From Clostridia bacterium (GTDB taxonomy: Bacteria; Bacillota; Clostridia; Christensenellales; Aristaeellaceae), in assembly GCA_017550745.1 (NCBI GenBank), contig JAFZOG010000148.1:29919-93918 (forward strand): 64,000 nt of DNA. Direction: 5' to 3'. The position numbers were made by a program, and so were the translations under genes. The notes under the pieces are model-generated. The model did not search any database. It had not been told where the DNA came from and saw only the letters and a list, made by a program, of their open reading frames with translations. Position 1 is the first letter of the stretch, and the number at the start of each line of letters is the position of its first letter. This document shows, piece after piece, positions 1,281 to 4,411 of the stretch.

Positions 1281-3131
1281 ATGAGCGAGTCTTTTGAAAA
1301 AATGTCTGTGATCGAGCTTCGTCAAAAAGCAAAAGAAATGGGCGTAAAGCTGGGTGCAGGGATCAATAAACAGGGGATCGTGGATAAATTAAACGAAGCC
1401 CTGGCTTCCACAGGCGCTCCCGCGCAAACGGCGCCGGAAACGGTATTCCAGGAAGAAGAAGCCGCTCCCAGGCCGATTCGTACTGCCGCGATCATCACGG
1501 ATGACGAGGAAAGCGACGAGGACGACATTCCCGTGCTCACCGCGAATCCCGCCTTGCGTTCTCCCGCGCGAATGGCAGCGCCGCACGCCGCCGCGCCTGC
1601 GCCCGGCGGGGCTTCGTCCCTCAGCACGATTTCCGCCAAAGCGCCTGCTTTCACCATGGAAGGTTCCCGCGCCTGGCACAATCCCAGGGCGTATCAGGCC
1701 CAGCAGAATAATTATCAGCGGCCCGCTGCCGCCAATTCCTGGACCCGCCCCGCGCCGCAGGAGCAGCGCGGCTACAGCCGTCCCGATGCCCGGATGCAGC
1801 AGCAGCGGCCGCAGCAGCCTTCTTATGTCAGCCGCTTCGGTCCCGAACAGGGACAGCCGGAGCCGGAAGCCTACCGCGGATACGGCAGCGCGCCCATCCA
1901 GCAGGATTACAGCGCCCCGCCCATGACGCAAACACCCAATCAAGGCGGATACGGCTATAATGCTTCCGGCTATGCCCCGCATCGGGACAGCGGCACAAAC
2001 GCAGGCCTGTCCGAGATCCTGGCCGCGGGCGATTTCTGCGATGGCGAAGGCGTGCTGGAAGTGCATCCCGAAGGCTACGGCTTCCTGCGCACCAACCACT
2101 ACCTGCCGGGCAAGCAGGACATCTACATTTCCAACGCCCAGATCCGGCGTTTTTCCCTGCGCACCGGCGATCATGTGGCCGGCAAGATCAGGCCCCAGCG
2201 TGAAGCCGACCGGTACAGCGCCATGCTGTATATCACGGAAATCAACGGCTCCCATCCGGACGAAATGCCTGAGCGCGCCCGCTTTGAGGATTTGACGCCC
2301 ATCTATCCCAAGAAGCGGATGACGCTGAGCGTGAAAAAGGAAAACGATCCCATCCTGCGGCTGATCGACCTCATTTGCCCCATCGGGTTCGGCCAGCGCG
2401 CCATGCTTTGCTGCGCTGCGCGGACGGACCGGCTGGCGCTGCTGAAAAAGCTCGCTGCCCATATCGCAAAGAACTACAGCAAAGCCCATCTGATGCTGCT
2501 GCTGCTGGATGAACGGCCGGAGGAAGTGACGGACGTTTCCGACAGCGTCAACGCCGATCTGGCTTATGCCACCTTCGACGAATCCCCGGAAAACCAGGCG
2601 CGGGCAGCCGACCTGGCGCTGGAGCGCGCCATGCGCCTTGTGGAGCAAAAGAAGGACGTGGTGCTGCTGGTGGACAGCCTGACCCGGCTGGCGCATGCCT
2701 GCAACGCGGCGGCGCCCTCCACTGCCCGGACCCTGGGCAGCGGCCTGGCGGCAGGGGCGATGAGCAAGCCGAAGCACTTTTTCGGCGCGGCCCGGAACAC
2801 CCGGGAGGGCGGCAGTCTGGCCATCATCGCCACGATACTCACGGACACCGGCAGCGAGCTGGACACCGCCATCTGTCAAAGCTTCCAGGGCAACGGGAAC
2901 ATGACCTGCGCGCTGAGCCAGCAGGGGCTGAACCAGCCCATGCTGATCGATCCCGCCAAGTGCGCAACCATTCACGACGAATGGCTGCTGACAGAGCAGG
3001 AACAGGCAATCAAGCAAAAGCTGATGGACATGGTGAAGGATATGCCGCCTGCCGAGGCCATGAACGCCCTGCTTCCCCTCTTTGTCCAGGCCGAAACCAA
3101 TGAACAGCTGGAAGCGCTGCTGAACAGCTGA
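1281..3131 (+). CDS. rho: Rho-family protein with a degenerate ATPase motor
   Basis: Homologue of the RNA helicase and termination factor Rho, 616 residues. In order: a Rho N-terminal helical domain (about 1-45), a roughly 200-residue disordered insert rich in Q, N, P, G, A and Y, then a cold-shock primary RNA-binding domain with intact GYGFLR and QIRRF motifs (about 255-335), then the RecA-like motor domain. In the motor, the expected P-loop PPKAGKTT is replaced by AARTDRLA (379-386), so the nucleotide-binding lysine, glycine and threonine are gone. The RNA-gripping lysine is Q536, and the arginines equivalent to E. coli R353 and R366 are missing. DERPEE (410-415), the Walker B aspartate (about D465) and FFGAARN remain. 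Start chosen at 1281 because AAGGAGG lies 6 bases upstream; the upstream in-frame codons have no site. It is read as one open frame with no sign of frameshift. Family assignment is secure; helicase activity is doubtful. Confidence 0.92.
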   Translation: MSESFEKMSVIELRQKAKEMGVKLGAGINKQGIVDKLNEALASTGAPAQTAPETVFQEEEAAPRPIRTAAIITDDEESDEDDIPVLTANPALRSPARMAAPHAAAPAPGGASSLSTISAKAPAFTMEGSRAWHNPRAYQAQQNNYQRPAAANSWTRPAPQEQRGYSRPDARMQQQRPQQPSYVSRFGPEQGQPEPEAYRGYGSAPIQQDYSAPPMTQTPNQGGYGYNASGYAPHRDSGTNAGLSEILAAGDFCDGEGVLEVHPEGYGFLRTNHYLPGKQDIYISNAQIRRFSLRTGDHVAGKIRPQREADRYSAMLYITEINGSHPDEMPERARFEDLTPIYPKKRMTLSVKKENDPILRLIDLICPIGFGQRAMLCCAARTDRLALLKKLAAHIAKNYSKAHLMLLLLDERPEEVTDVSDSVNADLAYATFDESPENQARAADLALERAMRLVEQKKDVVLLVDSLTRLAHACNAAAPSTARTLGSGLAAGAMSKPKHFFGAARNTREGGSLAIIATILTDTGSELDTAICQSFQGNGNMTCALSQQGLNQPMLIDPAKCATIHDEWLLTEQEQAIKQKLMDMVKDMPPAEAMNALLPLFVQAETNEQLEALLNS

Positions 3132-3153
3132 CGGCGCGGCAGAAGCATACAGC

Positions 3154-3190
3154 AAAACGGAGAAACGCGAAAAACGTTTCTCCGTTTTAT
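3154..3190. terminator. Bidirectional terminator between rho and rodA
   Basis: A 14-bp stem AAAACGGAGAAACG / CGTTTCTCCGTTTT with T-rich sequence on both outgoing strands. It sits between two convergent genes and should terminate both. Confidence 0.85.
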
Positions 3191-3217
3191 TATGTGTGTA
3201 CTGTGCCGCGGTGGCCG

Positions 3218-4411
3218 TTACAGATTCATCTTTGGCAGGGTTACCGTGGCAATGGCGGCCGTGTTTCCGCTGCGGGCAATATTGAGCACCAGCGCGATGG
3301 ACGCGATATTGGAAATAAAATTGGACCCGCCATAGCTCAGGAACGGCAGCGGGATGCCGGTAATGGGCATGATGCCCATGCACATGGCGACGTTCTGGAA
3401 CACGTGGAACAGCAGCATGGACATCACGCCGATGATCACCAGCTGGCAGAATTTATCCCGGGTAAACCGGGCGATCCAGGTCATGCGCAGCACAATGAAC
3501 AAATACGCCAGCAGCACCGCCGCGCAGCCCACGAACCCAAAGCTCTCCCCCACCACGGTAAATACAGCGTCGGTGGAGCTTTCGGGCACATAGCCCAGCG
3601 TCGTCCAGGAGCCGGGCAAGAACGTGCCCTGGCCGGTAAGCTGGCCCGAACCGATGGCTTTCTGGGACATCAGAATCTGATAACCGCCGCTTTGCTCATA
3701 CTTCTGGGGATCCAGGAACGCAAGCAGCCGCAGGATACGGTAGTCCGTCGTGTCGGACAGCATTCCGTAAGCTACCAGCGCGCCGACGCCGATCACGCCC
3801 AACAGGACGAACGTGAGGATGATCCGCATGTCCGTGCCGGCAAAAAAAATCATCACCAGGAACATAAAGGCGATCACGATGACCGTGCCCGTTTCGCCCT
3901 GGGCCAGCACCGTCAGGGCAGGCAGGCCAACGGTCACCATAACGCTGACAAAATCCTTGAACTTGCTCATGGGCTTTTCTGACCGCGCCAGCTGCCGCGC
4001 CAGCATCAAAAGGATAGACAGCTTGGAAAACTCGCTCACCTGAATGGAGCGGCCCAGAATGTCCGAACGCAGCCAGCCGCGCAAACCGTTGCTCACCTGG
4101 CCCAGCACCAGCGTGACCATCAGCAGGCCCAGGATGCCGTAATAGATCAGGCGGACACGGGCGCGGATGATTTCCGTGGGAATGGCCACGATGACGCCCA
4201 CCACGATGGGAGACACCAGGATAAAGATGGACTGCCACATGCTGGAGCGGTTGTTCAGGATCTTATTGAGCAGCGGCAGGCCCTCGCTTTCAGAAGGAAC
4301 ATAGCGGGCCATGGCGATGCACAGCAGGCCGAAAAAACTCAGCCCGTACACGGCGATCACCAGCGGCCAGTCAAACCGTCCCTCCCGGCTTCCACGGGTT
4401 TCCGTCATCAT
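3218..4411 (-). CDS. rodA: Rod-shape SEDS glycosyltransferase RodA
   Basis: SEDS-family peptidoglycan polymerase that works with a class B PBP in cell elongation. It is 397 residues with about ten hydrophobic segments. Family marks are GWLRSDILGRSIQVSEFSKL, PESSTDAVFTVVGESFGF (with the essential loop aspartate) and GIPLPFLSYGGSNFISN near the C terminus. Start placed at ATG 4411, one base after the minD stop; a longer frame to 4513 would overlap minD and is unlikely. It is the last gene of the elongation cluster and shares a terminator with rho. FtsW or SpoVE are alternatives within the family, but the neighbouring pbp2 and mreBCD genes favour RodA. Confidence 0.93.
   Translation of the reverse strand: MMTETRGSREGRFDWPLVIAVYGLSFFGLLCIAMARYVPSESEGLPLLNKILNNRSSMWQSIFILVSPIVVGVIVAIPTEIIRARVRLIYYGILGLLMVTLVLGQVSNGLRGWLRSDILGRSIQVSEFSKLSILLMLARQLARSEKPMSKFKDFVSVMVTVGLPALTVLAQGETGTVIVIAFMFLVMIFFAGTDMRIILTFVLLGVIGVGALVAYGMLSDTTDYRILRLLAFLDPQKYEQSGGYQILMSQKAIGSGQLTGQGTFLPGSWTTLGYVPESSTDAVFTVVGESFGFVGCAAVLLAYLFIVLRMTWIARFTRDKFCQLVIIGVMSMLLFHVFQNVAMCMGIMPITGIPLPFLSYGGSNFISNIASIALVLNIARSGNTAAIATVTLPKMNL

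Follow-up and report, generated by a model that had tools for sequence, protein, structure and literature searches.

The rho gene in the DNA analysed here raises the question of what becomes of a termination factor whose motor residues have been replaced and whose reading frame is intact. Is it a remnant on its way to gene loss, the partner of a second Rho, or a maintained protein that does something other than terminate transcription? The window, that is, the whole stretch of 64,000 nucleotides that was analysed, comes from a Clostridia bacterium (GenBank assembly GCA_017550745.1, contig JAFZOG010000148.1) whose genome is a draft, 88.8% complete and 7.45% contaminated.

The rho gene of the window and its motor residues

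The gene occupies 1281-3131 of the forward strand, on which all features given here lie unless stated otherwise, and encodes 616 amino acids from an ATG, upstream of which the open reading frame list gives a GTG at 1230 as the start. The protein opens with a helical segment followed by a long low-complexity linker rich in Q, N, P, Y and G (1281-2045, read from the sequence), after which comes the Rho_RNA_bind domain of the OB or cold-shock type (residues 256-327, 2046-2261), recognised by Pfam model PF07497 at 104.8 bits with a cut-off of 27. Pfam also reports a weak ATP-synthase-type motor domain at residues 360-535, solved Rho structures match from about residue 247 to 613, and the match to PRK09376 starts at residue 4. 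The protein reaches 407 bits with NF006886 (cut-off 315).

Like canonical Rho (E. coli; NF006886/TIGR00767), the window Rho has the same domain order, an OB domain with RNP1, and the PIGFGQR, RPEE, Walker B and FFGAARN stretches, but unlike canonical Rho, it is devoid of the P-loop, the R-loop lysine, R353 and R366, and its TIGR00767 score of 388 bits falls below the cut-off of 509. In the alignment to E. coli Rho, numbered after the K-12 record, the P-loop PPKAGKT corresponds to AARTDRL (former P-loop AARTDRLA, residues 379-386, 2415-2438), with K181 replaced by R381, G183 by D383, K184 by R384 and T185 by L385. Both catalytic arginines are gone from the stretch at 2937-2987, where P553 stands at R353 and I564 at R366, and where W568 is newly fixed at the position of L370. 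The retained parts are RNP1 (EGYGFLR, residues 264-270, 2070-2090), DERPEEV with E211 and R212 (residues 410-416, 2508-2528), and the Walker B strand VVLLVDS with its aspartate D265 (residues 460-466, 2658-2678). The first-pass annotation, which was made from the sequence alone, had described the open frame, the replaced P-loop lysine, glycine and threonine, the missing arginines, and the persistence of the cold-shock motifs, DERPEEV and the Walker B aspartate, all of which the alignment bears out. It was also right that the R-loop lysine is lost, but it named the wrong residue: the position of K326 is taken by the acidic E526 in TGSELDT (residues 523-529, 2847-2867), and Q536 sits in the SFQG stretch. 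Because the phosphate loop and the arginines are missing and the R-loop residue is acidic, ATP-driven translocation is not to be expected.

An assignment to a divergent paralogue such as NF041509 'paralog_Rho2' was considered and rejected; the short form of that model also describes a divergent Rho, but the window protein scores 318 bits against its cut-off of 628 and, as no other Rho was found in its genome, is not a paralogue. The reverse strand has an open frame of 664 codons that passes antisense through rho (1389-3383), as is expected from the high GC3, and was rejected by the gene caller.

Distribution and descent of the decayed Rho

Rho was found in 28 of the 29 genomes of the genus, and 26 of those 28 have no GKT P-loop, so the loss is clade-wide; in the remaining genome (G025), the search matched only ATP synthase. 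One of the two exceptions, G028, has GKT but no R353, and the other, G004, keeps G183, K184, T185, E211, R353 and R366 with isoleucine at the R-loop position, and was grouped with the decayed set in the purine and residue counts. In the family, 107 of 120 genomes have a rho match at E <= 1e-30, and the scores of the full-length proteins are bimodal, with one group at 519-629 bits, another at 211-464 bits, and none between 464 and 519. Low-scoring Rho is the only kind in 45 of the 107 rho-bearing genomes (46 matches), 61 have a high-scoring one, and G121 has just a piece covering 96 positions; G106 carries a second, partial match outside the residues read. Residues were read in 49 of the 61 high-scoring genes and in all 46 low-scoring matches.

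The two groups differ sharply at the catalytic positions. All 49 high scorers that were read keep K181, G183, K184, T185, E211, R212, D265, R269, R353 and R366, while the 69 decayed rows retain R353 in 3 cases, R366 in 23, K184 in 36 and G183 in 33. The OB residues of the same 69 rows are far better preserved (R66 in 65, Y80 in 65 and F64 in 60), and the mean column entropy of the OB domain is 0.90 bits in intact and 1.21 bits in decayed Rho, compared with 0.10 and 1.88 bits, respectively, for the catalytic set. The relatives form a graded series that extends from GKT-bearing proteins (23 of the 69 decayed rows, plus G004) to those whose P-loop is fully lost, and in genus g7 of the same family, no rho match at E <= 1e-30 was found in any of the four genomes (G034, G081, G107 and G128), which indicates that rho can be dispensable. 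Sequencing error or a lone pseudogene was rejected as an explanation, because G183D and K184R are fixed in 93% and 100%, respectively, of the rows of the window gene's own 14-row clade, which come from separate assemblies.

One Rho, L013, was left out of the 69-row set: it lies on a 3.6-kb contig of the g1 draft genome G018, is nearly identical to the Rho of G093 (genus g27) and stands beside a g1-type Rho piece (L036), so that it is probably bin contamination. The N-terminal lengths of intact family Rho are very uneven, with open frames of 405-889 codons, some of which include sequence before the start or are cut by contig ends (L037-L066).

Beyond the family, damaged motors occur elsewhere in the order, in single genomes of families f7, f5 and f23 and in genus g61 of f12, where five Rho proteins (L215, L216, L218, L219 and L221) are eroded in both halves, RNP1 included. 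In the class, 123 of 146 genomes have rho, and outside the order, 118 of the 119 class genomes with a rho match score at least 547 bits, the other being an unread contig-edge piece (G431). The relatives include rumen and gut assemblies, such as 'Clostridiales bacterium RUG563', a red-deer 'Christensenellaceae bacterium' and Candidatus Avichristensenella.

The descent of the decayed genes was followed in a tree of 137 rows, from which the motif columns had been removed and L214, a 215-aa piece, was left out; it was built by a quick method with SH-aLRT support only and long branches flagged. Decayed Rho falls into a 27-row clade (support 82), the four-row genus g35 (100), nested with ten intact rows in a clade of 14 (95), and a clade of 41 rows that contains the window gene (98), and all three groups lie within an 83-row clade (98) that also includes intact members. 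Given the starred branches of the tree, the no-GKT label must have changed 11 times or more. Judged from these sequences, the motor would have been lost at least three times in the family, unless catalytic sites were regained, so the loss, with its three or more family clades and further cases in the order, goes beyond what the first-pass annotation had supposed.

Gene order points in the same direction as the tree. The canonical neighbours encoding L31, DUF1385 and PrmC come after rho in G053 and G069, which are intact, and equally in decayed G060 and G052, they are partly retained at the decayed rho of G091, G036 and G125, and an aldose-epimerase neighbour is common to decayed g35 and intact g20 and g30. 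This shared order supports the orthology of decayed and canonical rho. The window gene itself has a GNAT gene on one side and a RodA/FtsW gene on the other, with the canonical neighbours absent, and its orthology thus rests on the tree and the single copy: since it lies inside the family rho tree and is the one Rho that two domain searches found in this draft genome, it descends from canonical rho and is not a duplicate.

Selection on the gene and its expression signals

The next question is whether such a gene is maintained or decaying, as the second-best explanation holds that it is being slowly eroded. According to that explanation, Rho-dependent termination is dispensable in the family, the motor is drifting, and the end state is gene loss, the OB domain and the fold remaining for no other reason than that a remnant which misfolds or fails to bind would do harm, or that the process has not yet run its course. 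The graded series of P-loops, the absence of a rho match from g7, the raised dN/dS of the motor and the erosion of both P-loop and RNP1 in g61 would all fit. Nevertheless, no internal stops were seen in the rho matches listed for the genus and family. In chosen near pairs, some of which have dS above 1, the motor dN/dS was 0.05-0.29 in decayed (39 pairs) and 0.05-0.23 in intact Rho (19 pairs). When all within-genus pairs with a core dS of 0.08-1.3 were taken, most of the decayed ones being in g1, the decayed medians were 0.38 for the N-terminal tail, 0.185 for the OB domain and 0.47 for the motor (345 pairs, maximum 0.895), and the intact medians were 0.88 (8 pairs), 0.14 and 0.17 (28 pairs), respectively. 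The motor is therefore relaxed yet still selected, with a ratio below 1 in every one of the 345 pairs, and the OB domain is held; the tail appears more constrained than in intact Rho, although few intact pairs enter that comparison. In addition, twelve residues that are otherwise fixed in intact Rho are newly fixed in the window gene's 14-row clade, including G183D, K184R and L370W. Finally, g61 provides a contrast, as the OB motif does erode where decay of the whole gene seems to take place. Taken together, we consider slow erosion rather unlikely, though still the most serious of the competing explanations.

The expression signals around the gene also argue against erosion, because the promoter is conserved. 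A promoter-like site, TTGAAA-17-TATAAT with 11 of 12 matches and a TG before the second hexamer, is located at 1064-1092 (scan and conservation), followed by a 5' leader of about 190 nt (1093-1280, sequence and alignment) with a ribosome-binding site at its end (AAGGAGGA), and downstream of the gene, the scan gave a terminator-like hairpin of 14 pairs followed by ATTATGTGTG (3154-3188). The scan found 2 promoters versus 1.2 in shuffles and 6 terminators versus 3.4, so that the promoter and terminator proposed by the first-pass annotation are supported mainly by the strength of the match, and in the case of the promoter also by conservation. With both G018 rows excluded from these and the pairwise counts, 25 genus members were tested, of which 23 have a promoter-like site with at least 10 of 12 matches 199-298 nt upstream of the rho start codon, and 19 have one with 11 of 12 matches, versus 0.8% of block shuffles. 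Of the other decayed rho genes, 2 out of 18 had a site of that kind, and of the intact ones, none out of 20. Just past the promoter, the leader of the window gene contains a short hairpin with seven T after it (1100-1136, energy -10.0) that resembles an attenuator, and the same test revealed none at the corresponding place in the other genus leaders examined. No RNA family matched the leader at gathering level, and a miRNA match over the terminator was at chance level (E 0.34).

Thus, catalytic residues have been lost from a gene that is under purifying selection, as in pseudo-enzymes. The earlier view of the gene as maintained and of its product as an RNA-binding pseudo-enzyme is supported by the open frames, the dN/dS below 1 and the genus-wide promoter.

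Possible roles of a Rho without its motor

The explanation that we favour, with a probability of roughly 0.55, is that an ordinary rho with a dead motor has become a non-translocating, RNA-binding pseudo-Rho. Substitutions would have dismantled the ATP motor of the genome's ordinary, vertically inherited rho and left in place the OB domain with its primary RNA-binding site, the motifs of the fold, the long tail at the N-terminus and the expression signals. The resulting protein would be unable to hydrolyse ATP, to pull on RNA or to dislodge RNA polymerase; its OB domains would most likely bind pyrimidine-rich single-stranded RNA, perhaps still as an oligomer, and together with the disordered tail, it may bind RNA passively and coat, protect or gather transcripts that are not translated, with termination left to intrinsic terminators and other factors. 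A passive RNA-binding protein is favoured because the primary RNA site is the best-kept one, and we accordingly favour ranking it first, unfinished loss second and a modulator of elongation complexes third. The clearly more relaxed state of the motor compared with the OB domain (0.47 vs 0.185) and the lack of a rho match in g7 count against the passive-binder reading.

Two known systems illustrate parts of this picture. In the available text of PMC4499133, Mycobacterium tuberculosis Rho, a weak motor, is similar to the window protein in its weakened R-loop, with threonine for lysine or arginine, and in a long insertion in its N-terminal part, but differs in having a competent ATP site and helicase activity. 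Bacteroides thetaiotaomicron Rho also has a long disordered N-terminal region; however, according to the part of PMC13269538 that is accessible, it is an active terminator in which condensation raises termination, whereas motor residues are missing from the window protein.

The third-ranked explanation is that the N-terminal domain still docks on RNA polymerase and that the protein works as a roadblock, pausing factor or antiterminator, and not as a general RNA binder. Rho engages NusA/NusG elongation complexes via its N-terminal domains before transcript binding, as stated in the accessible portion of PMC11018626, and the best-kept part of the window protein, the OB domain, would suit such a role, which we regard as distinctly unlikely.

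It is very improbable that the protein is still a terminator, working through a rebuilt nucleotide site or by an ATP-independent mechanism. The retention of E211, R212, the Walker B aspartate and the overall frame, and of GKT in some decayed relatives, would agree with this, but the P-loop glycine, lysine and threonine, R353, R366 and the R-loop lysine are all missing from the window protein. The available part of PMC4499133 argues against motor-free termination by M. tuberculosis Rho, which needs a competent ATP site to disrupt duplexes and elongation complexes. Genome composition also bears on this point. Researchers have found that active Rho drives a purine bias of genes in species with runaway transcription, and that the bias falls with Rho loss and is weaker in rho-less Bacilli (PMC13323073, in the text available). 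We counted purines in genes called with a codon model in 20-kb stretches (mean coding density 0.88), where sense purine content was 0.524 in intact (20 genomes), 0.512 in decayed (35) and 0.5105 in rho-less g7 genomes (4), and wobble purine was 0.470, 0.408 and 0.423, respectively. Decayed and intact genomes differed for both measures (Mann-Whitney p ~0.002), also on genus means (p 0.013 for purine and 0.009 for wobble purine) and in a regression with GC, where the decayed effect was -0.0138 (t -3.4) for purine and -0.063 (t -3.2) for wobble purine and the phylogenetic weight chosen by likelihood was zero. The effect is small, comes from 20-kb samples and leaves the groups overlapping, with decayed G132, G060, G117 and G122 as purine-rich as intact genomes, and the tree offers only 2-3 independent pairs, which cannot reach significance. 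Intrinsic terminators at convergent gene ends were found at 56 of 82 decayed and 23 of 44 intact ends, a difference that is not significant (p = 0.085), and at 8 of 16 ends in rho-less g7. The loss of termination is thus favoured by the missing residues, a judgement drawn from sequence, and weakly by genome composition. Six rho-less genomes of other families in the order (L272-L281, f26 and f23) had a mean purine content of 0.548, contrary to what the accessible text of PMC13323073 would lead one to expect.

The idea that the cell also contains a true Rho, of which this protein is a subunit or which it regulates, was put forward by the first-pass annotation and has in its favour only that suggestion and the 88.8% completeness of the draft. 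It can practically be dismissed, because the two domain searches gave one Rho in this genome and a full-length canonical, high-scoring Rho was seen in none of the 45 genomes of the family that have a low-scoring one (drafts, in which single misses are possible). One genome, G075 of genus g48, has two Rho genes (L101 and L103), both motor-decayed and low scoring.

A wider reading can be offered tentatively, as one that is somewhat more likely wrong than right: within one family, Rho may on at least three occasions have ceased to be a termination motor and become a pseudohelicase, a maintained scaffold that binds RNA without a motor and in which selection acts on the OB domain and the disordered tail and not on the ATPase, for example for gathering or shielding untranslated RNA in condensates. 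Outside Moreira et al. 2024 (NAR) and D'Heygere et al. 2013, which our search did not cover and where a prior mention is possible, we found no report of a P-loop-less Rho lineage. For surveys of bacterial genomes, the presence of rho need not imply the presence of Rho-dependent termination, and the graded relatives (intact, GKT only, no GKT, gene not found) make up a series for biochemistry. If the wider reading is true, a key enzyme of genome surveillance would have been turned into an RNA-binding structural protein. Rho is usually treated as a motor, and this lineage would separate its RNA binding from the motor in nature, more than once, which raises the questions of what the RNA binding of Rho is worth without termination and of how such bacteria restrain untranslated and antisense transcription without a Rho motor.
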